The position numbers and the translations under genes were made by a program. A model generated the notes under the pieces. It had not been told where the DNA came from and made no database searches. It was given only the letters and a program-made list of their open reading frames with translations. A DNA stretch of 64,000 bases from a virus: positions 233,750 through 297,749 of IMG/VR virus record IMGVR_UViG_3300033233_000001; one strand, 5' to 3'. This document shows positions 1 through 19,840 of this stretch, piece by piece. Position 1 is the stretch's first letter, and each line of letters begins with the position of its first letter.

Positions 1-344
1 TGACCGATCGCGATCACGGCCTCTTCGGCAGTGAAACCATGATCGCGCACCAGCAGATAGAACTGATGCGCGACATCGTCAGCAAAGTTCGCTACGTGCT
101 CCGGGTCATTGGAGAACAAGGCGACGGTCTCCTTGTACGCCGTCTTCAGCGGTACACCCTCGTCGAGTAGCGTGTGCATGCGAGCAACTGCCTCGTTGCC
201 GGCGTTGTTCAGGCTGGCCGCGCTCGCGCCGTGCTGTGTCACGTAGCTCCGCTTCCAGTCGCCAATACGGCGCGTAGCGGCCTCAGCATGACGCCGATGG
301 CCGCCTGCCGGATTGCGAACGTGTCTACGTGCTCGGCGCTTCAT
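1..344 (-). CDS. unknown protein, basic N-terminus, partial at window edge
   Basis: Open from an ATG at 344 to the window edge, so the C-terminus is missing. The ribosome site GAGAGG lies 7 bases upstream, just after the stop of the preceding gene. The product begins with a strongly basic stretch (MKRRARRHVRNPAGGHRR) and continues as a soluble, mostly helical 114-residue fragment. The basic element sits at the N-terminus here, unlike its neighbours, which carry it at the C-terminus. It is the most downstream visible gene of the leftward cluster, and I recognise no family. Confidence 0.6.
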   Translation of the reverse strand, partial: MKRRARRHVRNPAGGHRRHAEAATRRIGDWKRSYVTQHGASAASLNNAGNEAVARMHTLLDEGVPLKTAYKETVALFSNDPEHVANFADDVAHQFYLLVRDHGFTAEEAVIAIG

Positions 345-354
345 GCTCGTCCTC

Positions 355-1098
355 TCAGACCGTCTGCCCGTCGTCCCTGAGATCGTCGATATAGCGCTCC
401 CAAGCCCGACCACGCTTGCCTGTCGGATTCGGATAGAGGCCCACGACGCCGCTTCCGTGATCGGTCGCGGTGAGCCCTTCCTTCTTGCAGAGCTTTTCGA
501 GGTCCGCCATCGGCAGCGTCGTGCTCGTCGAGCACTTCAGCGTGATGAGTGGCGAGACGGGCTTACAGTACCGCTTCGCTTCATCTGCATCCGTGTAGAC
601 CTTGATGTCCTTGGCCGGCAGCCCGCGCTTGCCGATGAAGCTCGTCAGCTGATGGCCGAAGCGAGTGCGACTCGGGCTCCAGCCACCCTCGTCGGCCGGC
701 GGCGGCGGAAGCGCCGGACGATCATCATCGTCCTTCTCGCCTTCGTTCGGAGTCGTCATGCCGTGCTTGTAGAGGTAGTAGCCTCCGCCGAGCACGCCGA
801 TCGTGATGAGACCCCAGCCCCACCCCGGCACTCCGGCATACCGCGCGGTCAAGATATTGCCGTCTGTCGCTGGCTGCACCGGTCCGGTCGGACCGATAGT
901 GCCCGGCAGCACGCCCTGTGCGAGCGACAGCGGGTAGTACCGCTGGCCTTCCGGCGCGTAGTACTGCTGCGGCATCCCATCGATGCCCTGCACCGTCATC
1001 GGGTGCCCACCTTCCGCGAGCATCGCCTGCTCGCTCGCCGCTTGGCGCTCGAAGTACTCGTTCTCCATCTCATCGATCTCGTCCATGGTGTCCGGCAT
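355..1098 (-). CDS. unknown single-pass membrane protein
   Basis: A 247-residue protein. It has an acidic N-terminal helix (residues 1-30), a Gln/Tyr/Pro-rich stretch, one hydrophobic segment at about 92-113 (GWGWGLITIGVLGGGYYLY), an acidic linker, and a soluble C-terminal domain with four Cys (178-204). It lacks the long Arg tail of its neighbours but has a short NPTGKRGR motif near the end. The start is supported by GAAAGG 7 bases upstream. It sits in the tight leftward cluster of putative virion membrane proteins; function unknown. Confidence 0.75.
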   Translation of the reverse strand: MPDTMDEIDEMENEYFERQAASEQAMLAEGGHPMTVQGIDGMPQQYYAPEGQRYYPLSLAQGVLPGTIGPTGPVQPATDGNILTARYAGVPGWGWGLITIGVLGGGYYLYKHGMTTPNEGEKDDDDRPALPPPPADEGGWSPSRTRFGHQLTSFIGKRGLPAKDIKVYTDADEAKRYCKPVSPLITLKCSTSTTLPMADLEKLCKKEGLTATDHGSGVVGLYPNPTGKRGRAWERYIDDLRDDGQTV

Positions 1099-1140
1099 GC
1101 CCAGCCTTTCGTGTGTGCCCAGTTATCGTTCCCAGAGACC

Positions 1141-1635
1141 TCAGCGTGAACGCCGATGTTTGCGTCGAGCATTACGACGTGCGCGTCGCTTGTTTGCCGT
1201 TGCAGCCGGCGCTCGACGACCCGACATCGCAACGAAGCCGACGGTGAGCACGACCGCACCGCCGATGAGGGCGATCGGGACCCAGGGGATCTCGCTCTCC
1301 GTCGCGCCGTACGTCATCGGCATGCCCGGCGCCGTCGGCCCATACGACGTCAACACCGTGCCACCGGTCTTGCCGCCCGTCGGAGCGTACGGCGAGTACG
1401 CCGGACCGCCGGTCGTCTTGGCGCCGCCTGTCGTCGGACCAGGCGCCGGAAAATCGGCGGAGATCGACGCCATCAGCGTGTCCTCCGACGGCGTCGTCGT
1501 CGACGGCGTCGTCTGCCCGAGCGGCTGCGCGTCGAACAGGTTCGCGCGGAAGATACCGCTACCGGTATCGTGACGCGGGCCCTGCCCGAGCGCCTCGCCG
1601 TTGAACAGATCATTCGTGAACAGTCCCTTACCCAT
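1141..1635 (-). CDS. tail-signature membrane protein
   Basis: A 164-residue protein. The N-terminus carries two GLGQ-like boxes (EALGQG, residues 14-19; QPLGQT, 37-42). A low-complexity Thr/Gly/Pro region follows, then one transmembrane segment (about 117-137), then a basic tail starting TANKRRARRN and running to the end. The ATG at 1635 is chosen over longer in-frame starts because GAGGAG lies 9 bases upstream. Layout matches the other leftward-cluster proteins, suggesting a virion membrane protein with the tail on one side of the membrane. That role is inference. Confidence 0.75.
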   Translation of the reverse strand: MGKGLFTNDLFNGEALGQGPRHDTGSGIFRANLFDAQPLGQTTPSTTTPSEDTLMASISADFPAPGPTTGGAKTTGGPAYSPYAPTGGKTGGTVLTSYGPTAPGMPMTYGATESEIPWVPIALIGGAVVLTVGFVAMSGRRAPAATANKRRARRNARRKHRRSR

Positions 1636-1649
1636 ATGACTTCTTCTCC

Positions 1650-1940
1650 TCATCGAGCCTCGCGGCTCGTCCTCTTGTTGCGACGCGGGCGCGACGTGCG
1701 CTTGCGGCCTCGGTTCTTCTTCAGTCCAGTCTTCTTCCACGCACGGAACTCGCCAGGCGTCACGTTGATGCGCTGCGCCGTTCTCTCGATGCTGCCCCAG
1801 CCTGCCTCGGCCAAAGCGGCCGAGCCCAGGTAGCCTTCATCGACGAAGCCTTTGACGCTGCCTCGCTCACCGAAGACGATCCATCCGCGTCGCGGGTTGC
1901 CGTTCGTGTCGTTGGTCGTCGCGATGTACACAGCCAGCAT
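1650..1940 (-). CDS. small soluble protein with Arg/Lys-rich tail
   Basis: A 96-residue protein with no transmembrane segment. Residues 1-72 form a small folded region (FGERGSVKGFVDEGYLG; TPGEFRAWKKTG), and the last 23 residues are the basic tail with two KRTSR units. The ATG at 1940 overlaps the upstream stop as TGATG, with AGGAG upstream. It shows that the tail is attached to soluble as well as membrane proteins. Function unknown. Confidence 0.7.
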   Translation of the reverse strand: MLAVYIATTNDTNGNPRRGWIVFGERGSVKGFVDEGYLGSAALAEAGWGSIERTAQRINVTPGEFRAWKKTGLKKNRGRKRTSRPRRNKRTSREAR

Positions 1941-2425
1941 CACCGTCTCCTGTGCTTGTTCGGCGTCGGCGCGGTCTCTTCCGGCGGCGGCGGCGCAGCC
2001 TCTTCCTCGCCACCCTGGTTACGGTTGGCGACGACGAGTGCGACCGCGGCCGCTCCGATCGCCCAGGTCATCCACGAGAAGCCGAGCGGACCCGTCACCG
2101 TACCATCAGGCTTCGTGGTCTCCAGAAAGGAAAAGAAGCCCTTCTTCGGCGTCGCGTTCGCGCTGGTCATCATCGGCATCGGCTGCGCCATCGAGCCATC
2201 CGGCATCTGCGTCGGAAGTGGCATCGAGATCGGCGGACTGATCGGGACAGCCGTCATCGGCGGCGGCGACGCGTCCACTGCCTGCGGTTGGGTGTACGCG
2301 TTAGGATCCGTCGTGAACTGCACCGTGGCCGACGGTGTAGTGTCAAACGGGTCGGTGGCGACCTCGGTCCCGAGACCATGAAGGCCGGGCAAGCGACGCG
2401 CGCGCGCTGGTTGACGATACGACAT
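1940..2425 (-). CDS. tail-signature membrane protein (MSYR...GLG)
   Basis: A 161-residue protein. It begins MSYRQPARAR and has a GLHGLG box at residues 14-19. A Pro/Met/Thr-rich region follows, then one transmembrane segment at about 116-134 (WMTWAIGAAAVALVV), an acidic Pro-rich stretch and a short basic end (TPNKHRRR). AGGAAGG precedes the ATG. It is one of the clearest examples of the shared plan: MSYR start, GLG box, transmembrane helix, TPN plus Arg end. Confidence 0.78.
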   Translation of the reverse strand: MSYRQPARARRLPGLHGLGTEVATDPFDTTPSATVQFTTDPNAYTQPQAVDASPPPMTAVPISPPISMPLPTQMPDGSMAQPMPMMTSANATPKKGFFSFLETTKPDGTVTGPLGFSWMTWAIGAAAVALVVANRNQGGEEEAAPPPPEETAPTPNKHRRR

Positions 2426-2428
2426 GAC

Positions 2429-3256
2429 CTAGGCCTTCCTGCTCGTGCGCTTGTTACGGCGCGAGGCGCGCCTGCGCCGATTCGGAGTCGACCGCGCGCT
2501 CTTGCGCGTCGACATATACCACGCGCCGCCGCCAACTACGACAGCGCCGCCGATGCCGACGTACAGCCATGGGAACCCGCCACCGACGTTCTGGTTCGCC
2601 GTAGTCGGCGTCGACGGCGGCGGCACTAGGTCGCTCGTCGTCACCGGCGCCTCGGTCCCTGGCACCGGCGAGGTCACGAGATCGACATTCGTCTTCGTCG
2701 GCGGTGGCGGCGGCGCGTCCGGCGGTTTCGGCTGCGAGCCGAAAGTCGGCGTGTACTTCAAGAGCACCGGCGCCTGCTCCTTCGGCGGCGCCAAGAACGT
2801 CGACAGCGACTTGTACGCCGTCACGTTGATAGTGCCAGGCGCGGCGACCAGTCCACCGACAAGATCTGTCGCCAGGCTCTTGTACGTCGCGCCAGGCCAG
2901 AACGTCATCAGCGCCTCGTTCAGTCGGCGCTCGCGGTTCGCATTCGTGATCGCAAGGTCGAGCAGCGCCTTCACCGTGGAGCCCGCCACTACCGTGCCGC
3001 CCGTATACGCTCCGGAGGCCAGCCGCGTCATGTCCGTCGGCCTCATGGCACGAAGACCGTCGCGCAGAGCCTTGAGCCCAGCCGCGTCTGCTGTCTCGTT
3101 GTTGATGGCCGCCATGCCCATGGCGCGGTCGGCCGCCTGCGCGAGCCGATCGCGATTCAACAGCGGCCAGGAGCCCTGCCCACGACCAGCTACGGGCGAA
3201 AACCCGCCGACGACAGCGAAGTCAATCGTTGCGCCAAGATCGTTCGTATAGCTCAT
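2429..3256 (-). CDS. tail-signature membrane protein (MSYTNDLGA)
   Basis: A 275-residue protein starting MSYTNDLGA, the same nine residues that open the next upstream gene, so the two are paralogous at least at the N-terminus. The middle has a helical soluble domain and a Pro/Thr linker. A transmembrane segment (PWLYVGIGGAVVVGGGAWYM) follows, then a tail beginning STPNRRRRASRR. The ATG at 3256 overlaps the preceding stop as ATGA; the longer frame upstream is the neighbour's coding region read out of frame. Confidence 0.78.
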   Translation of the reverse strand: MSYTNDLGATIDFAVVGGFSPVAGRGQGSWPLLNRDRLAQAADRAMGMAAINNETADAAGLKALRDGLRAMRPTDMTRLASGAYTGGTVVAGSTVKALLDLAITNANRERRLNEALMTFWPGATYKSLATDLVGGLVAAPGTINVTAYKSLSTFLAPPKEQAPVLLKYTPTFGSQPKPPDAPPPPPTKTNVDLVTSPVPGTEAPVTTSDLVPPPSTPTTANQNVGGGFPWLYVGIGGAVVVGGGAWYMSTRKSARSTPNRRRRASRRNKRTSRKA

Positions 3257-4353
3257 CGCCGCCCTCTGCTCGTGCGCGTTCGGCGCCTGTTCGGCGTCGG
3301 CCCCGGTCGCAGCAACAGATACCCACCGACCGCAACCGCGCCGCCGACTCCGATGTACATCCACGGGACCCCAAACAGCCCCGCTCGCGGAGCCACCGGC
3401 GGCGGCACCAGTTCCTGCGGCGTCGGCGGTACGAGACTGCCTTCAGGCCGCTCGACCGTCACCTCCGGCGGCGGTGGCGTAACCGTGTTCGCAACGCACA
3501 CGCCTGTCGCATCACGGTAGTAGCCGTCGTTGCACGCGATCTCCCTCGACCCCGAGCCCGTCACGTCCTGACCCTGGACCTTGCCCGCGTCGGTCCCGGC
3601 CTTCGCGGCCGCTTCGTCGGCGGCGACCTTCGCGGCAGCCGCTTCCGACGCACTCTTCGCGTCCTCGGCCGCCTTCGCCGCCGCGGCCGCAGCAGCCGCG
3701 TCATCGGCCGACTTCGCAGCCGCAGCAGCTTCCGCGGCGATCCTCGCATCAGCCGCCGCCTTGGCCGCAGCCGCCGCTTCGGCCTCGGCCTGAGCCTGCG
3801 CCGCCGCGCTCGCCTGCTGGCGCTGAAGAGTAGCCAGGGCCGCAGCCAGATTCGCCGCGCGCTGACGCAGCCGTTCTGCCGTCGCAGCCGCCTCTGCGGC
3901 AGCCTTCCGGCGCGCCGTCTCTGCGGCAGCAGCGGCAACAGCCGGATCGAACTCCATGGCCGCGACTCTCGCCATCAGCTTCGGACCGCGAATCTGCCAG
4001 TTGATGTAGCCGATCCGCGCGGTGCCGCGGTACCGATCCGAGATCGCTCCCTTGATGAGATTGACCAGCGCACGCGTGTTGACCAGGCCCGCCGCGTTCA
4101 CCGCGAGGACTCCGATCCAACTCGCCCCGTTGTTCAAGGCGGTCACGTCCGACCGTGCCGTTGTGCCCTCCGTACGAGACCGAAGCGCCGCAGACCGCAG
4201 CATCGCAGCCGCCCGCATCGCACGCACGATCTCGTTGCGCTCTGCCGCCGGATAGCCCGCACGGTAATCGACCCTGCCGGGCAGAACCGACTTGCTACTG
4301 AGTCCGGTGGGCGCGAGGTCCAGGCCGGCGCCAAGGTCGTTCGTGTAGCTCAT
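3253..4353 (-). CDS. tail-signature membrane protein with Ala-rich coiled coil
   Basis: A 366-residue protein opening MSYTNDLGA like its downstream neighbour. Residues 1-150 form a helical domain. About 150-255 is an extreme Ala/Lys/Glu-rich coiled coil. It ends with a Pro/Val linker, a transmembrane segment (PWMYIGVGGAVAVGGYLLL) and TPNRRRTRTSRGRR. GAAGGGAAG precedes the ATG and the stop of the previous gene overlaps it as ATGA. The long rod plus membrane anchor suggests a structural or spacer role; inferred only. Confidence 0.78.
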   Translation of the reverse strand: MSYTNDLGAGLDLAPTGLSSKSVLPGRVDYRAGYPAAERNEIVRAMRAAAMLRSAALRSRTEGTTARSDVTALNNGASWIGVLAVNAAGLVNTRALVNLIKGAISDRYRGTARIGYINWQIRGPKLMARVAAMEFDPAVAAAAAETARRKAAAEAAATAERLRQRAANLAAALATLQRQQASAAAQAQAEAEAAAAAKAAADARIAAEAAAAAKSADDAAAAAAAAKAAEDAKSASEAAAAKVAADEAAAKAGTDAGKVQGQDVTGSGSREIACNDGYYRDATGVCVANTVTPPPPEVTVERPEGSLVPPTPQELVPPPVAPRAGLFGVPWMYIGVGGAVAVGGYLLLRPGPTPNRRRTRTSRGRR

Positions 4354-5318
4354 TCGAGACTTCCCTTCAGCGCTGTCACCAGCGCGGACATCGCGGAACT
4401 AGACACCGGAGTAAACGTCGTGGCAATCCCAGAACGGAAAACCTGCTTGTTCATCGACGACGGAAGCCCGAGAACAGGCGGCCGGATCGTCGCGGCCGCA
4501 AACGCCGCTCTCGCAGCATCGCTCGCACTCGCAATCGCCGTTCGCCGAACGATCTGCCGTGGCGTCTCGCCAGACAGGACCGCCGCCAGCAGCTTCTCCG
4601 GAATCCGAATCTCATCACCGTTCGTGTTGGGACCGAAGTTGAAGCCGCCCGGCCAGTCACCATAGTCGAGGCGCGCCGCGCCGCTGTTCACGAGCGCTAC
4701 TCCCTCGTCGTAGTAGGCCTTCAACGCCTGGGCCATCGCGCCATCGTCCTTCGTGCTCACCGGTGCCGAGGGGGACAGGTATCCACTCTGCATGAGTGCG
4801 TTTCGCAACACGTCCTTGTACAAGCTATCGGCCACGTACAGCCGCACGTAGCCATCCGGATTCACGATCCAACGAGGCACACTCGTGCTCGTCAGACGCT
4901 CGTAGAGCGGCCGAGAAATCTGGAGATCTTTGCTGGAGTTCGTGTTGGGACCGAAGTCGGTACCCGTCGGCCACTCCGCGTCGTTCCGACCAGTCCTCAC
5001 CCAGTACGAGCGCACCGCCGTGATGAACGGGCCGTCATCCCTGATCTCATAGTCGTGGCTGCCATCCCACTTCTGCACGTTGCGACGCGCCGTGAAGAGA
5101 TGACTGTCAGCGTCGACGTTCCGACGATCGATCACGCCCAAGTCGGCCAGCCTCGACATCATGGCGTTCAGGACAGCCTCGTCTCCGATCTTCACGTAGT
5201 CCATGTCGCCATGCCGGAACGCGCTGGCCTGCATCGAACTCCACGAAGGCAGCGACGAGGGCGAGGGCGGCGTCTGTCCAAGACCGTTCCGCCGAACGCG
5301 AGGCATACGATAGGTCAT
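4350..5318 (-). CDS. unknown soluble protein with duplicated FGPNTN module
   Basis: A 322-residue protein starting MTYRMPRVRRNGLGQ, so it carries the N-terminal signature and GLGQ box, but it has neither transmembrane segment nor Arg tail. Two copies of a module are visible, each with a helix, a W-P/G turn and the invariant string FGPNTN followed by an I-P/S-x-L helix. The centres are about residues 120 and 245. CAGGAGG precedes the ATG. It may be the soluble partner of the membrane proteins around it. Confidence 0.75.
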   Translation of the reverse strand: MTYRMPRVRRNGLGQTPPSPSSLPSWSSMQASAFRHGDMDYVKIGDEAVLNAMMSRLADLGVIDRRNVDADSHLFTARRNVQKWDGSHDYEIRDDGPFITAVRSYWVRTGRNDAEWPTGTDFGPNTNSSKDLQISRPLYERLTSTSVPRWIVNPDGYVRLYVADSLYKDVLRNALMQSGYLSPSAPVSTKDDGAMAQALKAYYDEGVALVNSGAARLDYGDWPGGFNFGPNTNGDEIRIPEKLLAAVLSGETPRQIVRRTAIASASDAARAAFAAATIRPPVLGLPSSMNKQVFRSGIATTFTPVSSSAMSALVTALKGSLE

Positions 5319-6769
5319 GACGTCCTCCTGCTCGTTCGACGAGCGCGACGACGACGCGCGTTGGCGGTCGGAGCCGCAGCCCGCCGCTTACGCAGCGCGC
5401 GCACGGCGACCGCACCACCGACGACGATCGTCGCGCCGCCGCCCAGCCACGCGTACACGGGCACGCCGTTGAAGTCCTTCTGCCACCAAGGCAAACACGA
5501 CTGCCCACGAGACTGGGCGTTCAGCGCCAGCTGCGAGTCGATCAGAGCCATCTTCTGCACGATGGCGTCACGGTTCTGCGTGATCGCACCGGCCTTTGCT
5601 TGCGCGTCCGAGAACTGCAACGCCACCTGCTTCAACTGCGTGTCCAACGAGCGCTTGGCGTTCGAGAAGTACAGACACTTCATGTACTCCTTCGTCACCG
5701 CCATCGTGTCCTGCGCGACCGCGCCGTCTACGGCCTGAACGACCTCGTTGCGGATCGCTCTGACGATCGCGCCGCCGTCCGGGTTCGTCTCGCTCTGGAC
5801 ATACTGCTGAAGCCACTGCGCGCCGTCGAGCCCGCCCTGAAGCGCGGCCTTCGCGTTCGTAAGCGCAGCCGTGGTCGCATCGAGCGCCGCGACGGCCGCT
5901 GTGCACGCGTCGCCCGCAGCCGCATCGCGCGCCGCCGGGCCTGCAACCGCCGCCGCTGCGACGATCGCCTCTGTCTGTCCCGCCGCCGCCAGCGCCGCCG
6001 TCACCTTGGCCGCCGCGTCGTTGAACTGCCGCGTCGTCCGCGTGAGCGCAATCGCCCTGTTGAGCGGGCTGCCGGAGAACGGCGCGGCAAGCGCCGCAAA
6101 GAACCCGACCGTCGCGCTCGCCGAGCGGACCGCAGCCATCTGCAACGCGTTGTCGCTCTGGTCCTGGGCGACCTTGACGATCCCGCCCTTGCCGATCGGA
6201 CTCGGCAAGGTCGCCGATGCAGATCCTGCCGCCTGCACCGGCACGCCACTCGCCTTGCCGACGACGAGCAAGCCGAACGCACGAGCCGCGCTTGCCGAGA
6301 CTGCGCCCGGCCAGGCAAACGCCACCCACAGCGTGCCGTGCGAGATCGCCTGATTCGTTGCAGCATCGCGCATCCAACCGGACGCCACGAAGTTGGGAGC
6401 CGAATCGACGATCCGATCGGTGATCGCCTGGCCGGTGGCCTGGATGAGTGCGTTGCCGCCGGCCCCACCACCGTAGATGCCGTCGAGCGCCGCCTGCACC
6501 TTCACGTCGTCGAGCGTCACGTACGGCCAGGCCATGACCGCGACCTGACCGGGGCCTGGGTTCTCCGTAGTTCCGAGCGTTTCGAGCCGCAGCGACTGGC
6601 AGCTGTACGGGATGATGTCCAACGTCAACTGTCGCTGTGCAGCAGCCGTTGGCGCCGCCAACTGAGGAGCAACGCGCACGTTCGTGATCACCAACGGCGC
6701 AGCCGGGCGCGTCGGGTCAGAGGATGTCCCCTGTCCCAAGCCGAAGCCGTGCTGTGCGCGGTAGCTCAT
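5315..6769 (-). CDS. tail-signature membrane protein, 484 residues
   Basis: Begins MSYRAQHGFGLGQGT (signature plus GLGQ box). A large Ala-rich helical and beta ectodomain follows, with six Cys spread over it. A transmembrane segment comes near residues 428-447 (YAWLGGGATIVVGGAVAV), then a tail of PTANARRRRARR type ending in TSRRTS. It is the biggest ectodomain in this cluster apart from the gene at 9608. GAGGA lies 9 bases upstream of the ATG. Function unknown; virion membrane protein is the best inference. Confidence 0.77.
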   Translation of the reverse strand: MSYRAQHGFGLGQGTSSDPTRPAAPLVITNVRVAPQLAAPTAAAQRQLTLDIIPYSCQSLRLETLGTTENPGPGQVAVMAWPYVTLDDVKVQAALDGIYGGGAGGNALIQATGQAITDRIVDSAPNFVASGWMRDAATNQAISHGTLWVAFAWPGAVSASAARAFGLLVVGKASGVPVQAAGSASATLPSPIGKGGIVKVAQDQSDNALQMAAVRSASATVGFFAALAAPFSGSPLNRAIALTRTTRQFNDAAAKVTAALAAAGQTEAIVAAAAVAGPAARDAAAGDACTAAVAALDATTAALTNAKAALQGGLDGAQWLQQYVQSETNPDGGAIVRAIRNEVVQAVDGAVAQDTMAVTKEYMKCLYFSNAKRSLDTQLKQVALQFSDAQAKAGAITQNRDAIVQKMALIDSQLALNAQSRGQSCLPWWQKDFNGVPVYAWLGGGATIVVGGAVAVRALRKRRAAAPTANARRRRARRTSRRTS

Positions 6770-6781
6770 CTTCGTCGATCC

Positions 6782-7222
6782 TCAGTATCCAGGCCACCCG
6801 TATACGTACGACGGACACCAGGTTCCCATGCAGCGCTGCCAGTCGCTCGGGTCCAGGAATCCATCGCAGCGCCACTGCTCGCTGCACACCGGATAGTTAC
6901 CACCGTAGTAGTAGCCGTCGCCGTAGTAGCCCGGCCAGCCCCAACCCCAGCCGCCGCCCCAACCGCGCCCGCGCCAACGACCACCGTGCCCATGGCCGTG
7001 TCCGCCGTGGCCATGACGAGGCGCCCCGCCGCCCATGAACCCGGCGCCGCCGCCGCGAGGCCCGAGGCCGCCGCCGCCAGGCAGATTCCGAGGCGCACCT
7101 GGCATACCGCCGCCGGGACCGCGCATGGGCATTCCGCCACCCATCCGACCAGCGCCGCCGCCCCGGCCACCGCCACCGCCGCCACCCTTGCCGAGACCGT
7201 ATAGAGGCTGCCTGTAGCTCAT
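6782..7222 (-). CDS. Gly/His-rich protein with MSYR...GLG start
   Basis: A 146-residue low-complexity protein. It begins MSYRQPLYGLGKGG, then has Gly/Arg/Met-rich runs, a HGHGGHGHGHGG cluster, a Gly/Trp/Tyr-rich stretch, and a C-terminal piece with three Cys and aromatic residues (YVYGWPGY). No transmembrane segment and no Arg tail. The His cluster could bind metal, and the Gly/Tyr runs resemble adhesive or condensate-forming proteins. No family is recognised. Confidence 0.7.
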   Translation of the reverse strand: MSYRQPLYGLGKGGGGGGGRGGGAGRMGGGMPMRGPGGGMPGAPRNLPGGGGLGPRGGGAGFMGGGAPRHGHGGHGHGHGGRWRGRGWGGGWGWGWPGYYGDGYYYGGNYPVCSEQWRCDGFLDPSDWQRCMGTWCPSYVYGWPGY

Positions 7223-7341
7223 GACTGATCTCCGTACTTACGTTCCCACGCCCTGGCCTCAGGGCTGTTTTCGTACCTGACCGCGGCGACAAACCAGAGC
7301 GCGAATGCGCCGACCGCCATCCACTTGAGTCGCTCAGACAT
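7219..7341 (-). CDS. 40-residue membrane peptide
   Basis: MSERLKWMAVGAFALWFVAA is a short charged start followed by a single transmembrane helix; a polar tail (ENSPEARAWERKYGDQS) completes the 40 residues. The start at 7341 is preferred because it overlaps the stop of the upstream gene as TGATG; a longer in-frame extension runs antiparallel to nothing conserved. Size and layout fit a small virion membrane peptide or a holin-like peptide. No specific function can be assigned. Confidence 0.6.
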   Translation of the reverse strand: MSERLKWMAVGAFALWFVAAVRYENSPEARAWERKYGDQS

Positions 7342-7682
7342 CAGCGCCTCCGCTTGTTTCGACGCGCCCTGCGACGACCACGATTGGCCGTGGGCGACGC
7401 CGCGCGCGCCTTCATGCGCGTATAGAAGAACCACAGCGACCATGCACTCAACCCGAGACTCACGAACGCGACGTACTCCATGCGCCGCGCGCGCGCACGG
7501 TCTTCATCGATGAACGCGTCCTGCCCGAGATGGTCGTTCATCAGCCGCGGCGGATGCGTCTGAAACACCATGGGAGAGACCTGGCCACGAAGCCGCTGGG
7601 GCTGGCCGTAGTCGGCGAAGACCCATGGGTTCGTAACGCCCCACCTCTGGAAGCCGAGCGACCTGTCGACCTTGTAGCTCAT
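7341..7682 (-). CDS. tail-signature membrane protein
   Basis: A 113-residue protein: MSYKVDRSLGFQRWG at the N-terminus, then a helical region, one transmembrane segment (VAFVSLGLSAWSLWFFY) and the tail PTANRGRRRARRNKRRR. The ATG at 7682 overlaps the neighbouring stop as ATGA. The upstream part of the open frame is antisense-phase read-through of the next gene and is rejected as coding. Confidence 0.75.
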   Translation of the reverse strand: MSYKVDRSLGFQRWGVTNPWVFADYGQPQRLRGQVSPMVFQTHPPRLMNDHLGQDAFIDEDRARARRMEYVAFVSLGLSAWSLWFFYTRMKARAASPTANRGRRRARRNKRRR

Positions 7683-8143
7683 CGAGATCTCCCGCTGGTC
7701 CGCTTCTTCGGCCGGCGGCTGCCGCGCTTCTTGCTGCCGCGCTTCTTGTTCGCACGAAGCGGCGAGCCGTGGATCTCGCCGTCGTCGACGTACAGGTCGA
7801 ACATCCCAAACTTCTTCGCCGCTTTCGAGAGGCGCTTCTGGTTCTCTTCGGACAGATCGTCCTCGTCCCAAAAACCAGTGCCATGACCGTTCCTGTTCAA
7901 CCAGAAACGGTTGCCCGCGCGATCGTCGTCGATGCCGGCCTGATCGTCTGTCGCGCTCCAGAAGTACTCGTTGCCACCGAAGAACTCCTCGCAGTCTCGC
8001 TTCATCGCTGCGAGCGTCTCTGCTGCGATGTCAGCGGGTCCGTAGTGCTTGTCGAGCGGTTCGCCGCCAGACTCGTCGCTCTCGTCGTTCGTCGACCAGA
8101 GCGCCGCTTCGATGTACGCATCCGTGAACTTCTTGAGGCTCAT
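7679..8143 (-). CDS. widespread phage protein (FTDAYIEAALWS family) with added basic tail
   Basis: A 154-residue protein. Residues 1-125 match a family I know from many phages: FTDAYIEAALWS near the start, a DIA.ET segment, then F-W-L-x-R-N-G-H-G-x-G-F-W-D and a closing LYVDDGEI. Its function is unknown. In this window the family domain is followed by a 30-residue Lys/Arg-rich tail (ending PKKRTSGRSR) like those of its neighbours. The related phage proteins I recall end soon after the LYV-DG motif, so the tail looks added here. Confidence 0.75.
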   Translation of the reverse strand: MSLKKFTDAYIEAALWSTNDESDESGGEPLDKHYGPADIAAETLAAMKRDCEEFFGGNEYFWSATDDQAGIDDDRAGNRFWLNRNGHGTGFWDEDDLSEENQKRLSKAAKKFGMFDLYVDDGEIHGSPLRANKKRGSKKRGSRRPKKRTSGRSR

Positions 8144-9260: not shown

Positions 9261-9262
9261 CG

Positions 9263-9604: not shown

Positions 9605-9607
9605 GGG

Positions 9608-11107: not shown

Positions 11108-11153
11108 GTCCGTGTTTCCCGTCTTGTTTTTAGGCGCCCAGCCCGGTTTATGA

Positions 11154-11885: not shown

Positions 11886-11895
11886 ACGAGCCTTT

Positions 11896-12270: not shown

Positions 12271-12278
12271 CCTACGCC

Positions 12279-12962
12279 TCACTTCTTCAACACCGCGAAC
12301 AACACGGTCGCGATCACTAGACCGCCGCCGCCGATGAGAAGGTAGCGCATCATACGCGCCTCCTGAGCCTGCTGCATCTGAAGCTGCTGCATCTGAACGC
12401 TCTGCGCGAGTTGCGCCTGCGCCTGCGCCTGCCGAGTCTGAGCATCGATGCCAGCGATGTTGCAACCGCCGATCGTGCCACCCGTTGCCGAGGCCGACTG
12501 GACTGCGCCGATCTGTCCGGTCTGACCGCCGGCTCCGAACGCATCGAGGAAGCCCCCGACAATCGACGTGCCTCCCGCCACCGTACAGAAGCCGACACGG
12601 ACGTCACTATCGGTGCTGCCGAGGCCCTGCGTCCCCTGCTGACCCATCTGCGCCTTCGTCAACGCGACGAGCCGATTCGCGATGGCCGCGCGCACGACGT
12701 CGAAAATGACTTGGTCAGCCTGATCAGCGGACTTCGTCGCGGCGAGACGCAGGAAGTCGGCGCGCGTCTTCGTCCCAAGACCTGGCGTCGCGGCGTTCAG
12801 CGTGTCCGTCATCACCCGAAGCCGCTTGCTGCGCGGGACGGCCGCCATCTTGAGCAGCACGTTCGACGCCGCGAGGCTGGCCGACGAGAGGATCGGGTCC
12901 GTCTTTGCCTGTTGGCCGGCCTGGATGGGCGCAGAGCCTGTGATCGTGAGTCCGAGAGCCAT
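12279..12962 (-). CDS. tail-anchored protein, paralogue of the 11154 gene
   Basis: A 227-residue protein, clearly paralogous to the product of the 11154-11885 gene: DPILSSASLAASNVLL, TPGLGTKTRADFLR and a shared Gly-rich centre with paired Cys (FCTVAGG; GGCNIAG). It ends in a Gln-rich coiled coil and a hydrophobic anchor (YLLIGGGGLVIATVLFAVL) plus KK. The pair probably arose by local duplication with the small 11896 gene between them. Role unknown; virion membrane protein inferred. Confidence 0.75.
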   Translation of the reverse strand: MALGLTITGSAPIQAGQQAKTDPILSSASLAASNVLLKMAAVPRSKRLRVMTDTLNAATPGLGTKTRADFLRLAATKSADQADQVIFDVVRAAIANRLVALTKAQMGQQGTQGLGSTDSDVRVGFCTVAGGTSIVGGFLDAFGAGGQTGQIGAVQSASATGGTIGGCNIAGIDAQTRQAQAQAQLAQSVQMQQLQMQQAQEARMMRYLLIGGGGLVIATVLFAVLKK

Positions 12963-12965
12963 GGA

Positions 12966-13406
12966 TCACTTCCTTCTGCGACGCCGACGAACGTTCGGGC
13001 TGACCGAGGCCGGCGCGGCCGCTCTGGCCGGAGCGGGCCTCATGGCCACCGTGATGAGCGCGACCGCAACGGCAGCGCCGCCGATGCCGATGTACGTCAG
13101 CGTGTTGTCCGGTGCGGGCACCATCGGCATGACCGGAGCCCAACTCGTCGACGGCGAAGCCGACACGAAGTGCGAGAGGTCGGTCTTCGCCGGTTCCGGA
13201 CGATAACCCGACGGCTTCGTCCCGCCCGAGGGCGCCGGTGTCGTCGTAGACGTCGACGCCCCGGTCGTACTCGACGGCATCCCGATTGACATCGCCGTCA
13301 AAGACGACTCCTGTCCGAGCGAGCCCGTGCCGTGGTACTGCGGCACGCGACCACGCACTCGGAAGGCCGCGAGACGGTCGAAGATCGGCGAGATCGCGTA
13401 GCTCAC
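12966..13406 (-). CDS. tail-signature membrane protein
   Basis: A 146-residue protein. The GTG at 13406 gives VSYAISPIFDRL, matching the cluster N-terminus, and overlaps the upstream stop. Further features are a GSLGQES box near residue 28, a Ser/Thr/Pro linker, a transmembrane segment (LTYIGIGGAAVAVALITVAM) and SPNVRRRRRRK at the end. The Ser-Pro-Asn lead-in is a variant of the TPN/TAN that precedes most tails. Confidence 0.75.
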   Translation of the reverse strand: MSYAISPIFDRLAAFRVRGRVPQYHGTGSLGQESSLTAMSIGMPSSTTGASTSTTTPAPSGGTKPSGYRPEPAKTDLSHFVSASPSTSWAPVMPMVPAPDNTLTYIGIGGAAVAVALITVAMRPAPARAAAPASVSPNVRRRRRRK

Positions 13407-13750
13407 CGCGAACGCCTCCGGCGACGGCGGCTGTTGCGCTGCGTGTGCCGAACTCCGAAGCCCTGGGCAAGGCTGATCGGAATCGCCAGCGGCCAGAAGG
13501 CGCCGCCGATGATGCCCCATACGAGGGCCCACCCGATCGAGTTGTTCCGGCGGTAGCCGTGGTACGCGAGGGCGCCGACAGATGCAGTGCCCGCGACGAG
13601 CATGAGCGTGCGCACGGGCTGCGAAAGGGTCATCGCCGTGCTCGTCTGACCGGTTACGACCGGAGACGGAGCAGGCGGAATCGTCTGCTGACCGAGTCCA
13701 GCCGCCGCGAAGAGTCCGCCGCCAGCGCCGTAATAGCCCATGCCGTTCAT
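13403..13750 (-). CDS. tail-signature protein with two membrane segments
   Basis: A 115-residue protein from the ATG at 13750. It has a Gly-rich start with AAGLGQQTIPP (GLGQ box), then two hydrophobic segments (TLMLVAGTASVGALAYHGY and IGWALVWGIIGGAFWPLAI) and the tail TQRNSRRRRRRSR. With two passes, both termini would lie on the same side of the membrane, unlike the single-pass relatives. The longer open frame upstream is rejected: it is Arg/Ser nonsense antisense to the neighbour. Confidence 0.72.
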   Translation of the reverse strand: MNGMGYYGAGGGLFAAAGLGQQTIPPAPSPVVTGQTSTAMTLSQPVRTLMLVAGTASVGALAYHGYRRNNSIGWALVWGIIGGAFWPLAIPISLAQGFGVRHTQRNSRRRRRRSR

Positions 13751-13760
13751 TGTCGTCTCC

Positions 13761-14231: not shown

Positions 14232-14246
14232 GTGTTCGTTTCCTTC

Positions 14247-14822: not shown

Positions 14823-14965
14823 ATTTCTGCCGTGCCCGAGGCGCCCGGATGGAAGTCTCGCACATAGACCGGTCGATGTGCAAGTGCCGAAGCCGCCCGA
14901 TCTCAAACCGCTGGCGTCGTTACCACGGCGTGCTAACGTCACGAGCAAGGAGCAGCGTTTGCACG

Positions 14966-15199
14966 ATGAACACCACCATCAGGAAGATCGGGAACAGCGA
15001 CGGCGTCATCATTCCGGCGGCCGTCATGGCGCGCCTGGGCATGGAGACAGGCGATCCGGTTACTCTCGACGTCGAGGGTAGCCGACTCGTGATCTCGTCG
15101 AGGTCCGGCGCGGCCTCTGACAGCGGCGACTTCGAGCGCGCGGCCGTTGCCGTGACGAGGCGCTACGCGTCGCTTCTTCGTAAGCTGGCCGACTTGTGA
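14966..15199 (+). CDS. AbrB/MazE-type antitoxin
   Basis: A 77-residue protein with the swapped-hairpin AbrB/SpoVT DNA-binding fold: KIGNSDGVIIPAAVMARLG, then GDPVTLDVEG and LVISS. In this family the N-terminal part binds DNA at its own promoter and the C-terminal part neutralises the toxin. AGGAG lies 13 bases upstream. It is coupled to the Doc gene by a GTGA overlap and is isolated on the plus strand between two leftward blocks, like an inserted cassette. Confidence 0.85.
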   Translation: MNTTIRKIGNSDGVIIPAAVMARLGMETGDPVTLDVEGSRLVISSRSGAASDSGDFERAAVAVTRRYASLLRKLADL

Positions 15200-15669
15200 G
15201 CCACTTCCGCTACCTCAGCGTCGACGAGGTTCTGGCTCTTCACGAGATAGCAATTCAGAATGGCGGCGGTGGCCCACTTGAAGTCCGAGACCCAGGCGGA
15301 GTCGAAGCTGCCGTTTTTCAACCGCAAGCCGGCTTCGGAGACATTCTATTCTACAAGACCGTCCCCGAGATTGCCGCTGCTTACGCGTATTTCATCGCAC
15401 AACGGCAGGCTTTCGTCGAGGGCAACAAAAGGACCGGATGGCTTGCGGCCTGCACCTTCGTCGAGATGAACGGCGGCCTAGTCGAAGCCACGGACGACGA
15501 CGCCATCCAGATGCTACTGGAGGTCTCAAAAGGCCTGTCGCTGGAAAGCGTGGCGGACTGGTTTGCCGAGCGCATCGTCCAACTGGTACACGAAAATCTC
15601 CCGAAACGGAACAGCAGACCAAAGCGCACGAGTCGCAGGTCGAAGCGCGCTAGCAGGCCGAAGCGCTAG
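15196..15669 (+). CDS. doc: Doc-family (Fic fold) toxin with virion-type basic tail
   Basis: A 157-residue protein. Residues 1-130 are Doc-like: LSVDEVLALHE at the start, then the Fic motif as QAFVEGNKRTG. Doc enzymes phosphorylate EF-Tu and use the first His of HxFx(D/E)(A/G)N(G/K)R; here that position is Gln (codon CAG), so activity may be lost or altered. The last ~25 residues (PKRNSRPKRTSRR and on) are the same type of tail as on the neighbouring late proteins and exceed the usual Doc length of about 125. Confidence 0.82.
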   Translation: MSHFRYLSVDEVLALHEIAIQNGGGGPLEVRDPGGVEAAVFQPQAGFGDILFYKTVPEIAAAYAYFIAQRQAFVEGNKRTGWLAACTFVEMNGGLVEATDDDAIQMLLEVSKGLSLESVADWFAERIVQLVHENLPKRNSRPKRTSRRSKRASRPKR

Positions 15670-15995: not shown

Positions 15996-16006
15996 GCGCG
16001 CAGAGC

Positions 16007-18604
16007 TTACTCGTCCCCGCCGCCGCCCGCTACAGCCTCACGCAACAGCGCCATGGAATCCCTGATCAGGCGATGCCCGGCAGGCGTCGCACCCGCAGAC
16101 CGCGGCTCGACCGCCTTGATGCCGTCGATGATTTCCTGGTCGCTCTTGGCGCAGATGCCTTCGAGAATCGCGGTCGGGAAGCCGCCTTCCATGACCTTCT
16201 CGACGAACTCCTCAGCCGTGTCGGCCTGGTTCACGGAGTCGTGCACGAGCTTCGCGACCGCCAGAGCGATCTGCTTTTCCATCGCGTTCATGCTGACCCT
16301 CTCCGGACGAGCCGGCGCCGCCGCGACGGCCGCCGGAACCTGCTGTTGCTGCTGCGGGGCTGCCTGCTGAGCGGCGGGCTGCGGCTTCTGCGCGAACGGG
16401 CCCTGCCGCTGCTCCCACGGAGCCCTCGGGCGTTCGAGACCTTCAGCGAGATTCGGAATCGGATCGAAGTCAGCCGATCCACCGCGCTTACGGCGCCGCG
16501 GCGGGCCCTGCTGCGCGTGCTGCTCGGCCGCCGTCTGCTGAGCCTGCCGACGTGCCTGCTGCCCGGGAACCGGCGCGGCCGGCGCGGCCGGCGGCTGCCC
16601 CGGGGGGAGAAGCCGCGGCGGCTCCCCAAGCGGCTGGAGCCGAAGCCCTTCAGGCGTCTGCACGACCATCATCTGACCCATCGGAGTGATCACGATTTGG
16701 CCCGGAATCATGGCGCCCTGCTGTGGCTGCTGTCCGGGACCCGGACCCCTGACGAGCGTCGAGAGCGCGCTAAGCAGTTCCGGTCCGCGCTCGGCGACGG
16801 TCTGCACCATTTCGTTGAGGTCGACGTTCGAGCCAGAGAGTCCGATCCCGCTCGCACTACCCGAAGACGAAGACGAGGACGACGACGTGTTCTCGACGAG
16901 CCCGAGGCCATCACGAGCCGCATCTCGGAACTCGCGGAACCTGGTCATCTGGACCACCGGATCGTGCGTGTCCTGGAGCTTACTCCGAACCTCGCCGATC
17001 TCGCGTACCTTGTTGTCGACTTCCGACTGGAGCCAGCGCACGCGTTCGCCGTGATTCGTCTCGACCATCGCGAGACGCGCTTCCCACTGCGTCTTGAGGT
17101 TCATTTCCATCGTCTCGCGACTGTCCTTCGCCGCCTGATCGCGCTCGTTCTGGACCTCGCGTGCGCGTTCCTGATCGCGACGCCGCTCTTCACGCTCCTG
17201 CTTGATCTGGTCCTCGTACCGAAGCTCGCGGTGCCGCCAGGCCTCGCGCTCGGCCGCAAGCTCGCGCGCGGCCATCTCGCGCACGGATACGAGTTCCCGC
17301 TCGTGCGCGCCGCGCTCCATCTTGACCTGCTCATCGTGGCGCTGTTCGCGATGGCGCTGCGCCTCGCGTTCCGCCGCGATTTCGCGCGCATTCGCTTCAC
17401 GCGTCGCCGCGATCTCGCGTTCGTGTCCAGCCCGCAGGCCGTCGATCAGCGTCGCGTGCTGACCGCGCATGGCCTCGATCTCGGCGCGGTGTTTCTCGGA
17501 CGTCTGGTCGAGCACCTTGCCGGCAAGTTCAAGCTCGCCGCGCGGTGGAGGCGGCGGTGGCGGTGGCGGCTCCGGCTTGGGCATCGCCGAGAAGATGTCG
17601 CGGATCTCCGCCCCAAGACTCGGGCGCGAGTTTTCGACTTCCCGCCGTGCGTTCTCCATCTCTTCCATCCTTCGCAGAAGCACGTCGCTCTGCCGTCGTT
17701 GTTCTTCTAGCGCTCGTTCCAGCGTCGTCTGACGCTCCGCCGCGCGCTCGCGATCGACGGCCGCGCGCTCTTCGAGTGCCTTCCTCTCCGCTTCCGCACG
17801 CTCGCGATGAAGCGTGATGACGTCTTCGGAGCGACGAAGCTCTGCTTCTACGAGCGGAGCCGCCAGCTGTCGTGCATCGGCGAGGCCAACTTCGCTACGC
17901 TGCTCGACGCGCCGCCGCTCGTCACGCTCACTCGTTAGCGCGTCCTTGAGCGTGCCCATCGCGATCTCGACGATCCTCGGGTTCTCTTCTACCCGAACAG
18001 GCGGTGCGCTCGGCCCGCCGTCCTTTGCGTCTACCGTCTGCTGAGCACGAGAGACGCGCGCCCACTTCGGGTCGCCCTGGATGTTCACGCGCACCGACTC
18101 GTAGTGCTGGTAGCCCTGATTCGTGCCCGACTTCGGGCCCACAACCTTCACCAAGTACTCGCCGCCGCCGTATTCGTTCTGGATGAACGCCTCGTCGATC
18201 GGCTGGTCGTAGTCGTCGAGGAAGCCGTCGGCCTTTCGACCGCCAGGAAAGATCTTCGGCCACTGCCGATAGACCTGGAGCTTGAAATCCGCTCGCTGAC
18301 CGATGTTGTACTTGCCGACCAGGTACCCGATCGTCTTGACGTTCTCGACCGGCTTCGGCAGGTCAGGCACGATCGTCTGGAGCGCTTCTAGCTGCTCCAT
18401 CGTGATCTGCTCGACGTCCTTGGCCGGAGGCGTCGTCGCCAACGGCGGCTCGATCGACTCCGCAGCCGCTGCGGTCGCCTCAGCATCGTCACCGTCGGGC
18501 GGCACGACCCGAGTCGCGCCCTTCTTGTTGCGGTTTCGCTGCTGCTTCACCACGCCGTCGACGAGCTTGTCGATCTCGTCCTCGGTGGTCGTCGCGTCGC
18601 TCAC
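16007..18604 (-). CDS. 865-residue coiled-coil protein with YGGGEY module
   Basis: GTG start overlapping the upstream stop. Residues ~85-175 hold a module with YRQWPKIFPGG, DDYDQPIDEAF and NEYGGGEYLVKVVGP. Its core is identical over 63 residues to part of the gene at 45878. Then come ~300 residues of Arg/Glu coiled coil broken by a Pro run, a second coiled coil, a Gln/Pro-rich low-complexity region and a helical C-terminal domain. It lacks the basic tail. A long rod-forming virion or scaffold protein is the likeliest role; inferred. Confidence 0.7.
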   Translation of the reverse strand: MSDATTTEDEIDKLVDGVVKQQRNRNKKGATRVVPPDGDDAEATAAAAESIEPPLATTPPAKDVEQITMEQLEALQTIVPDLPKPVENVKTIGYLVGKYNIGQRADFKLQVYRQWPKIFPGGRKADGFLDDYDQPIDEAFIQNEYGGGEYLVKVVGPKSGTNQGYQHYESVRVNIQGDPKWARVSRAQQTVDAKDGGPSAPPVRVEENPRIVEIAMGTLKDALTSERDERRRVEQRSEVGLADARQLAAPLVEAELRRSEDVITLHRERAEAERKALEERAAVDRERAAERQTTLERALEEQRRQSDVLLRRMEEMENARREVENSRPSLGAEIRDIFSAMPKPEPPPPPPPPPRGELELAGKVLDQTSEKHRAEIEAMRGQHATLIDGLRAGHEREIAATREANAREIAAEREAQRHREQRHDEQVKMERGAHERELVSVREMAARELAAEREAWRHRELRYEDQIKQEREERRRDQERAREVQNERDQAAKDSRETMEMNLKTQWEARLAMVETNHGERVRWLQSEVDNKVREIGEVRSKLQDTHDPVVQMTRFREFRDAARDGLGLVENTSSSSSSSSGSASGIGLSGSNVDLNEMVQTVAERGPELLSALSTLVRGPGPGQQPQQGAMIPGQIVITPMGQMMVVQTPEGLRLQPLGEPPRLLPPGQPPAAPAAPVPGQQARRQAQQTAAEQHAQQGPPRRRKRGGSADFDPIPNLAEGLERPRAPWEQRQGPFAQKPQPAAQQAAPQQQQQVPAAVAAAPARPERVSMNAMEKQIALAVAKLVHDSVNQADTAEEFVEKVMEGGFPTAILEGICAKSDQEIIDGIKAVEPRSAGATPAGHRLIRDSMALLREAVAGGGGDE
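18086..18274 (-). repeat. 189-bp duplicated coding module, copy 1
   Basis: Inverted copy of 46451-46639, inside the late coiled-coil gene. It spans from the VYRQWPK segment to ESVRV in the protein. Boundaries are sharp: flanking residues diverge at once on both sides. Confidence 0.85.
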
Positions 18605-19308
18605 GGGGCGGGCTTCTCCGGTGACGGCGACGCCGCTGCCTCTGGGGGCGCGGGTTTCACCGGCTTCTTCGAGGTCTTCTTCGGCTTCTTGTCTGCCGGC
18701 GACGCACCTTCGGCCTCATCACCGTCGTCGTCGTCATCACCGTCGTCGTCGTCATCACCGTCGTCGTCATCACCGTCGTCGTCATCACCGTCGTCGTCCC
18801 GCTCCTCGTCGTCCTCGTCCTCGTTCTCCGGGCCCTCGGTCATCTGCTCCATGAGTTCCTGGATCTTCTCGGTGACACCGTTGAAGATCTTCTCCATGTC
18901 CTGATCACCAGGGAGCTTCTTCTGGAGGAAGGCCCCGAGTTCGTACATGGCGGCCGCGAGTTCCTGAACCGTCGCCATGGACGGCCCGTCATCTCCATCG
19001 TCCCCGAAGCGCTCCCGGAACGCCCGGTGAAGACGCCGGATATCGTCCGCGTTCGAGGCTGCGAACGCGTACGTGTCGTTCAAGGCCGGCCCGAGAAGTT
19101 CGAGCAACGTGATCATCTGCGGGTAGGCATACTGCCCGATGAACTGACGCAGCTGCGCCGGGTCGTCGAACGCCGGCTTGCCTCCGGGACCCTTGTCTCG
19201 AAGCAACTTCTTCCGCGACGCCTGAAGCTCGCTACGGAACTTGCCGAGCATCGGCGGCAGCGGCACTTCGCCGGTCTCTTCAATGGAGGCGCTCTCGTTT
19301 TCGCTCAT
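18601..19308 (-). CDS. acidic protein with Asp-repeat tract
   Basis: A 235-residue protein from the ATG at 19308. The N-terminal ~150 residues are helical (FRSELQASRKKLLRDKG; YAYPQMITLLELLGP). A tract of almost pure Asp/Glu/Gly, encoded by the imperfect tandem repeat at 18721-18799, follows. It ends in KKPKKTSKKPVKP, a short basic segment. The polyacidic tract could neutralise or chaperone the Arg-rich tails made by neighbouring genes; this is speculation. Confidence 0.7.
   Translation of the reverse strand: MSENESASIEETGEVPLPPMLGKFRSELQASRKKLLRDKGPGGKPAFDDPAQLRQFIGQYAYPQMITLLELLGPALNDTYAFAASNADDIRRLHRAFRERFGDDGDDGPSMATVQELAAAMYELGAFLQKKLPGDQDMEKIFNGVTEKIQELMEQMTEGPENEDEDDEERDDDGDDDDGDDDDGDDDDDGDDDDDGDEAEGASPADKKPKKTSKKPVKPAPPEAAASPSPEKPAP
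18721..18799 (+). repeat. tandem 15/18-bp repeat coding the Asp tract
   Basis: Repeats of ACCGTCGTCGTC(GTC)ATC in 18- and 15-base units, about 4.5 copies, in frame within the acidic gene on the minus strand. Unit length differs by one codon, as expected for slippage. Length variation between relatives would be neutral in frame. Confidence 0.8.
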
Positions 19309-19324
19309 GTGATTCCCAGGTCTC

Positions 19325-19840
19325 CTAGAGGTCGATTTCACCGGTCGTGCGTGCAGCTTCGCGCGACATCATCTCTTGCCGTTCCTCGAATTCCTCGATC
19401 TCGCGTGCCGACGCCTCGTCCTGCGGTTCGCGGACGGTGCACGCGAAGAACGAGATCTCGCCGATCTGCATCAGTTCACTCTGGGACGCGAGACGTGTGC
19501 AGAATCGGTGGATCTGCTTCGGCGCGGCGAACCCTGCGATCGTCCCATCCGCCTCGGTCAAGAGCGCGGCGTAGAAACGGCACGGCGGTCGGCCGCTCGT
19601 CTTGTCGCCCTTGCAGATCAGCGTCTTGCCGCTGACCCAGGACTTCGGCCCAGGCTCGTCGACGACCAGCTGCACACCTTCGCCAGGCGCGCCTTCGGCT
19701 ACCTGGAGCGCCGAAAATTCGACGTGTGCACCGGGGCTCAGCGGATTCGCGGGCAGCGGGATCTGAAACTCTCGCTCCGTCAGTCCGGCAGAGGGTTGCC
19801 CGTCATCCCCTGTGACGGGGATTTGCTCAGAAGCGCCCAT
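19325..19840 (-). CDS. unknown protein at head of leftward block
   Basis: A 171-residue protein from the ATG at 19840 (a frame-open extension to 19876 exists). It is beta-rich with five Cys, the motif LICKGDKTSGRPPCRFYAALL and a charged helical end. It is the first gene transcribed leftward from the divergent control region. The ribosome site is weak whichever start is used, so the start is uncertain. No family recognised. Confidence 0.65.
   Translation of the reverse strand: MGASEQIPVTGDDGQPSAGLTEREFQIPLPANPLSPGAHVEFSALQVAEGAPGEGVQLVVDEPGPKSWVSGKTLICKGDKTSGRPPCRFYAALLTEADGTIAGFAAPKQIHRFCTRLASQSELMQIGEISFFACTVREPQDEASAREIEEFEERQEMMSREAARTTGEIDL

Follow-up and report, generated by a model that had tools for sequence, protein, structure and literature searches.

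A block of single-helix membrane proteins with a shared N-terminal box beside capsid-like genes in large circular virus genomes

Analysis of a 64-kb window of DNA (positions 233,750–297,749, the final 64 kb of a 297,749-bp IMG/VR virus record, here G000) revealed a block of many, mostly non-homologous proteins that share an N-terminal box and one transmembrane (TM) helix near the C-terminus, and that are encoded beside a conserved core trio and a protamine-like protein. We lean towards the view that this block supplies the membrane proteins of a virion module, in an undescribed and probably tailless lineage of bacterial viruses with circular dsDNA genomes of about 150–300 kb. The N-terminal box and TM plan looks like a real, conserved signature of the module, and the Arg tails look like a clade trait. 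The most parsimonious reading of the block is still a virion that contains a membrane; the block could instead serve a host-envelope or replication-site membrane.

Signatures of the block proteins

A sequence-only reading of window positions 1–19,840 had listed nine (M/V)(S/T)Y starts, and all nine are present (Table 1). Genome-wide, MSY/MTY starts occur in 22 of the 467 genes of G000, compared with 1.2 expected from shuffling, and GhGQ boxes in 12 proteins, compared with 3.0 expected; the excess of both is similar in G001, G003 and G004. The use of different codons at the start was likewise borne out: the Ser/Thr codon at position 2 is written with six different codons, and therefore selection acts on the protein. 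The same reading had placed a GLGQ-type box near the N-terminus, in agreement with the GhGQ excess and with an N-terminal bias, as 25 of the 58 boxes in eight records lie within the first 40 residues versus 5 of 18 in shuffled proteins.

A C-terminal TM helix followed by a basic tail, proposed for about ten genes, was detected by a simple hydropathy scan at 1141, 2429, 3253, 5315, 9608 and 13403. The genes at 7341, 9263 and 12966, which the scan scored too low or the gene calls missed, were judged by eye to have both features, and the tail at 1940 is mixed (EEE, then NKHRRR). The plan does not extend to 4350 and 6782, which have the start and box without TM helix or tail, or to 11154 and 12279, in which the terminal TM helix has no tail. 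At 1650, 7679, 8140 and 8820, soluble proteins have the tail and no membrane segment, as had been stated. The gene at 54906, previously taken for a tailed DnaJ gene, encodes a TM helix and a tail, but Pfam detects no DnaJ domain in it; a conserved J-domain protein is encoded instead at record position 205951 (Pfam DnaJ 5e-14). Start, box, TM helix and tail coincide beyond chance in G000 and less evenly in its relatives. Proteins bearing these signatures are also encoded outside the window, at 203–234 kb, 69–72 kb and 85 kb of the record. The block proteins that were scanned had no Pfam or PHROG match.

Table 1. Genes of the block and its surroundings in window coordinates, with the start codon of those that begin (M/V)(S/T)Y
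Position	Strand	Start codon	Product	Evidence
1141..1635	-		164 aa; N-terminal GLFTNDLFNG...LGQ, C-terminal TM, tail TANKRRARRNARRKHRRSR (+13)	TM scan
1650..1940	-		96 aa, soluble; KRTSR/Arg C-terminus, without TM	
1940..2425	-	ATG	161 aa; MSYR...GLG, C-terminal TM, mixed tail EEEAAPPPPEETAPTPNKHRRR (net 0)	
2429..3256	-	ATG	275 aa; MSYTNDLGA, C-terminal TM, tail TPNRRRRASRRNKRTSRKA (+13)	
3253..4353	-	ATG	366 aa; MSYTNDLGA, Ala-rich middle, C-terminal TM, tail TPNRRRTRTSRGRR (+8)	
4350..5318	-	ATG	322 aa; MTYRMPRVRRNGLGQ, without C-terminal TM or basic tail	No relevant Pfam/PHROG match
5315..6769	-	ATG	484 aa; MSYRAQHGFGLGQ, C-terminal TM, tail TANARRRRARRTSRRTS (+13)	
6782..7222	-	ATG	146 aa; MSYRQPLYGLGKGG, Gly-rich, without TM or basic tail	
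7341..7682	-	ATG	113 aa; MSYKVDRSLGFQRWG, C-terminal hydrophobic stretch, tail TANRGRRRARRNKRRR (+13)	Stretch by eye, under scan threshold
7679..8143	-		154 aa, soluble; KRTSGRSR C-terminus	No Pfam
8140..8823	-		227 aa, soluble; KRTSGRAR C-terminus	No Pfam
8820..9221	-		133 aa, soluble; C-terminal end KRTSRRRR (+15)	No Pfam
9263..9604	-		113 aa; YGIGQ box, hydrophobic stretch, Lys-rich tail	Stretch by eye
9608..11107	-		499 aa, conserved; acidic N-terminus, C-terminal TM and basic tail	
11154..11885	-	GTG (start inferred)	243 aa; VSYRARRGLGFG, terminal TM without tail; family conserved likewise without tail	
12279..12962	-		227 aa; MALGLTITG, terminal TM and KK; paralogue of 11154	
12966..13406	-	GTG (start inferred)	146 aa; VSYAISPIF...GSLGQ, C-terminal hydrophobic stretch, tail SPNVRRRRRRK	Stretch by eye
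13403..13750	-		115 aa; MNGMGYY...AGLGQ, C-terminal TM, tail RNSRRRRRRSR	
14966..15199	+		MazE-type antitoxin, directly upstream of Fic/Doc gene	9e-8
15196..15669	+		Fic/Doc-family protein with KRTSR-type basic C-terminus; soluble cargo candidate	Pfam Fic 3e-13
16007..18604	-		865 aa, coiled-coil-like flanking protein; marker of one block border	
54906..57608	-		900-aa repeat protein, C-terminal TM, tail RRRPKRNRRRRR	No Pfam DnaJ

The MazE-type and Fic/Doc genes (14966–15669) lie on the strand opposite to the neighbouring genes. A GIGNY motif, which may be a variant form of the GLGQ box, recurs in neighbours of the block (window 11896–12270, 13761–14231 and 15666–15995; record 205140–205385), in some of them as GIGNYVRxW at the C-terminus. 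The gene of the 865-aa border protein shares a 188-bp stretch of 92% DNA identity (173/188) with the unrelated-looking gene at 45878–46702, inside which a tRNA-Ser(cga) is predicted (46284–46367), which may be spurious.

Circular genomes and relatives

An exact overlap of 126 bp joins window positions 63875–64000 with record positions 11–136, and G000 therefore closes into a circle of about 297.6 kb. At the start of the record, ten bases mismatch the other end and resemble an Illumina adapter remnant. The gene at window position 63541 continues across the junction into record positions 1–3267. Relatives were recovered by a scan with one core protein, and G008 was added by a scan with a second core protein (36% identity). 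Two of them, G001 (159,872 bp) and G003 (161,502 bp), also close, with end overlaps of 127 and 123 bp, and G004 (152,857 bp) has an imperfect end repeat; G002, G005 and G006 are fragments. The most distant relative is G008 (182,770 bp), for which end comparison found no overlap. The literature searched, with most subscription papers and bioRxiv as such outside its scope, contained no account of such a group.

A scan of genome contigs gave two matches, in MAGs labelled Deltaproteobacteria and Planctomycetota. At window 61177–62043 there is a lipoprotein-like ORF with DAGP/DSGP repeats, a repeat style which we take to be associated with Myxococcota. Together with the Deltaproteobacteria MAG contig, this ORF hints at the host.

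Conservation of the block

For comparison across six genomes, the block was delimited by its borders and not by its signature, with the 865-aa protein (orthologues in G001, G003, G004, G006 and G008) marking one side and the Arg-rich protein, together with the capsid-like genes, marking the opposite side. It lies between the same flanking genes in the related genomes. Genes inside and outside were then compared per genome, with p values uncorrected for the number of tests. TM genes were enriched inside the block in G000 (15/42 vs 45/425, p 5e-5), G001 (16/23 vs 31/203, p 1e-7), G003 (7/17 vs 27/198, p 8e-3), G004 (15/28 vs 31/186, p 6e-5), G006 (17/24 vs 12/73, p 2e-6) and G008 (16/20 vs 21/182, p 2e-10). 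Starts of the form M..Y were enriched in five of the six genomes, the exception being G003 (p 0.07); the pattern had been broadened after the MYEYTT starts of G008 were seen, so the value for G008 is not blind. The GLG/LGQ box was also enriched in all genomes except G003 (p 0.40), and in G008 it was found in 10 of 20 genes in the block versus 7 of 182 outside (p 1e-7). Basic C-termini were enriched in the block only in G000 (p 2e-11), G001 (p 3e-4) and G004 (p 6e-7), and not in G003 (p 0.10), G006 (p 0.31) or G008 (0/20, p 1).

Basic tails and the protamine-like protein

The sequence-only reading had interpreted the Arg tails as lining the inside of a virion membrane and condensing the genome themselves in the manner of protamines. 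The coordinated set at protein level stands, and its block position and TM content are kept in the relatives. Near relatives also argue against random C-termini, since orthologous families keep their tail charge: in some families most members have tails of +7 to +15, the charge being weaker in G006 and G007, and in another family all members stay at about 0 to +5. Tails of +6 to +15 were found in proteins of G003, G004 and G006 clustered with the 5315..6769 product, and relatives of the 7341..7682 protein in G001 and G004 have a TM helix and tails of +10 and +14. The 9608..11107 protein has relatives in five records, of which the G006 version has no tail.

Charges of +8 to +15 on many proteins of G000–G004 and the G007 contig, kept by family, thus favour packing of DNA by the tails. 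However, G006 tails are short and weakly basic, and the homologous block of G008 keeps the TM helix and GLG box with tails that are neutral to acidic, such as YKRGEEEEAELEEAELAALGY. Because of these tails, a positive tail is unnecessary for the module, at least in G008, and packing of DNA by tails is not a general rule. In addition, KRTSR peptides occur on soluble enzymes outside the block, and a different protein of strongly basic composition is encoded next to the capsid-like genes in seven records. We therefore regard condensation of the genome by the tails as unlikely. The exchange of acidic and basic tails between relatives amounts to a natural experiment on the role of the tail.

The basic protein, of 740 aa in G000, contains 24% K+R overall, and its first 420 aa contain 36% K+R and 1% D+E; equivalents in G002, G003, G004, G006, G007 and G008 have 13–29% K+R. 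Its C-terminal end, GYAGGLFARNLFAGMF, carries the motif GYAGGLFARNLFAGM, which is also found where core proteins end and, in the form GLFTNDLFNG, where the 1141 block protein begins. Judged by its sequence, the 740-aa protein is a better protamine candidate than the Arg-tailed block proteins. We take adenovirus core proteins and Hc1-type proteins to be protamine-like parallels in composition to the 740-aa protein, which is highly basic and encoded beside capsid-like genes; unlike them, it has the GYAGGLFARNLFAGM motif at its C-terminus.

KRTSR was found in 20 proteins of G000 and in essentially none of G001, G003 and G004. Of its 29 units, 13 are N-terminal and 12 C-terminal. Copying of DNA repeats was considered as their origin and rejected, as the 29 units have 25 distinct DNA sequences, indicating no recent copying; their serine codons AGC/AGT are over-used (20/29 vs 38% genome-wide). 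It also marks soluble enzymes outside the block, and its bearers include the Fic/Doc protein as well as HicB/UPF0150-like ones. The C-terminus of an AbiEii-like protein is rich in Arg, and an ART-PolyVal protein and a SprT-like protein in relatives bear similar peptides. By analogy, we infer that the Arg/Ser peptide may be a nucleic-acid or packaging tag.

Core trio and searches for capsid and packaging genes

Three adjacent proteins, encoded at record positions 212,913–216,451, are highly conserved and present in all eight records. They had no PHROG match and no Pfam match over the cut-off, PDB profile searches with the three alignments gave nothing significant, and hhalign found no similarity among them. 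The AF2 model of the 311-aa core protein (pLDDT 61) has a long helix and a beta-sandwich. Its best PDB match (E 7e-3) is an uncharacterised bacterial protein and not a known capsid protein; most other top PDB matches are jelly-roll capsid proteins, namely SPV1 VP4, polyoma/papilloma VP1 and SH1 (E 8e-3 to 4e-2), and matches in BFVD were mixed, including circovirus-type capsids and SPV1 VP4. Because no PDB E-value was below 0.001 and TM-scores were low, we treat the single-jelly-roll resemblance as a lead. The AF2 model of the most conserved capsid candidate (pLDDT 31) showed no fold. The capsid-like gene from record position 215738 to about 217400 lacks conserved first codons and lies beside a LAGLIDADG-type ORF (216554–217159), as if split by an intron; the arrangement is similar in G005/G006.

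Searches for TerL gave no match with PF03237 in seven records or with phrog_2, PF03354 and PF04466 in five, the controls being matched, although a divergent or intein-split TerL could be missed. In five records there was also no match to the HK97 capsid and portal models PF05065 and PF04860, which cover only part of these families, or to the A32 ATPase and family-B polymerase models PF04665 and PF00136. For the FtsK/HerA class, PF01580 had no match above the cut-off in the virus records and one sub-threshold match in G003, and the ATPases of SH1 and P23-77 gave no match as phmmer queries. A 1100-aa Walker-A protein was rejected as the packaging ATPase, its motifs GKT, DEDP and QAVHRIRP looking helicase-like; a PDB profile search with this P-loop protein gave nothing significant.

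The structural cluster of G001, G002 and G003 includes three kinds of endolysin-type genes, which argues for a lytic virus. With such lysis-type genes present, and since TM proteins need not be structural, the block proteins might act in the infected cell, at a replication-site membrane, in lysis or in superinfection exclusion, instead of in the virion. We consider this distinctly unlikely: every genome has a large and diverse set of proteins encoded as one block next to capsid-like genes, and lysis alone would not account for so many.

The failure of the models searched to detect a known virus packaging gene would also fit a large circular plasmid or another extrachromosomal element, as would the ParB-like and integrase genes of G001 and the PcfJ-like domains. 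Against a plasmid stand the classification of the record as a virus in IMG/VR, the endolysin-type genes in the structural cluster, and tblastn of the 311-aa core structural protein, which gave no match among 72,556 plasmid records, or among 50,697 phage records. A non-viral nature is thus very unlikely.

Proposed role of the block

In the membrane-containing virion that we favour, the N-terminal domains would stay cytosolic, as no signal peptide is seen by eye and the TM helix is at the end. The N-terminal M-S/T-Y...G-h-G-Q box may serve for docking to a shared partner, for example a capsid or scaffold protein, and the helix would anchor the protein in the virion membrane. The Arg/Ser peptides would be clade-specific nucleic-acid or packaging tags, which membrane proteins carry behind the TM helix and soluble enzymes (Fic, AbiEii-like, ART, SprT) at the N- or C-terminus; by analogy, these enzymes may travel in the particle. 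Bulk condensation of the DNA would be carried out by the large Arg-rich protein. The domains of up to about 480 residues, the TM helix near the end and the lack of a signal peptide by eye suggest tail-anchored insertion with the C-terminus out. By the positive-inside rule, basic residues stay cytoplasmic, which would make the Arg tails cytosolic, opposite to the tail-anchored topology. The topology decides whether the tails meet DNA or capsid.

The box could have a different function if the MSY...GLGQ stretch were a short propeptide, cut at or after GLGQ by a maturation protease, as by the prohead proteases of large tailed phages. The box is often 3–40 residues from the start, with a Thr/Ser/Pro-rich linker following in several proteins, and core proteins repeatedly have a GG-LF motif at the C-terminus. 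However, no maturation protease was identified, and in several members the box lies far downstream or occurs twice, which makes cleavage improbable.

More speculatively, and with considerable doubt, the docking model may be extended to a virus lineage outside any known realm, with circular dsDNA of 150–300 kb, a tailless, membrane-containing particle and unrecognised capsid and packaging proteins, in which the N-terminal motif recruits otherwise unrelated tail-anchored proteins and soluble enzymes are brought onto the DNA through a transferable Arg/Ser peptide. If true, a tailless membrane design at 150–300 kb in which neither a terminase nor an FtsK-type ATPase is recognisable would raise the question of how these genomes are packaged. 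The core trio, the protamine-like protein and the membrane-protein block provide concrete genes for finding such particles.

Comparison with known viruses

To our knowledge, isolated prokaryotic tailless membrane viruses have small genomes; those compared here are of 20 kb (SPV1), 31 kb (SH1) and 17 kb (P23-77). SPV1 (Portogloboviridae) is a presumably nonlytic virus of an archaeal host with circular dsDNA, single-jelly-roll capsid proteins, an inner lipid layer and a nucleoprotein core, and encodes a glycosyltransferase, many DNA-binding proteins and no recognised polymerase (PMC8459092). Of these features, circularity, glycosyltransferase genes and a non-significant structure match to VP4 are seen in the present viruses; unlike SPV1, they have genomes of 297.6 kb and about 160 kb, a bacterial gene style and endolysin-type genes. 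In Sphaerolipoviridae/Matshushitaviridae (SH1, P23-77), the two small single-jelly-roll capsid proteins adjoin small one-helix membrane proteins, comparable to the membrane-protein block beside capsid-like genes here. The P23-77 genome is circular and its VP22 contains GLGFGLGNLGQ. However, hhalign found no similarity between the core proteins and the SH1/P23-77 capsid proteins VP4/VP7/VP16/VP17, and these viruses of 17–31 kb have a packaging ATPase, whereas none was found in the present ones. This comparison points to a design that works like SPV1 or SH1 with a roughly tenfold larger genome, and is not evidence of membership.

Domain classes related to those of the tagged enzymes are known in polyvalent proteins, which are injected with phage or plasmid DNA (PMC5512222). 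The Fic, nucleotidyltransferase, ART-PolyVal and SprT-like domains resemble such head-packaged injected phage proteins (T4 Alt; polyvalent proteins), here with basic terminal peptides. In contrast to the present viruses, phage-encoded polyvalent proteins are mostly tied to portal-terminase phages (PMC5512222). T4 uses a capsid-targeting sequence, unlike the KRTSR/Arg peptide. Among injected proteins, we know of no description of a KRTSR/Arg tag.

Other genes

The SF2 helicase at window 41913–45881 has intein signatures (Hint and LAGLIDADG domains), and inteins were also found in the genes of a UvrD helicase (record 87842) and RtcB (113906). A conserved protein at window 53288–54460 resembles, by eye, an archaeo-eukaryotic-type primase; helicases are present and no family-B polymerase was found. 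Pfam identified a TROVE/Ro60 protein at record position 174275, and a nicotinamide phosphoribosyltransferase and a GroES-like protein were recognised by eye (record 46845 and 71245).
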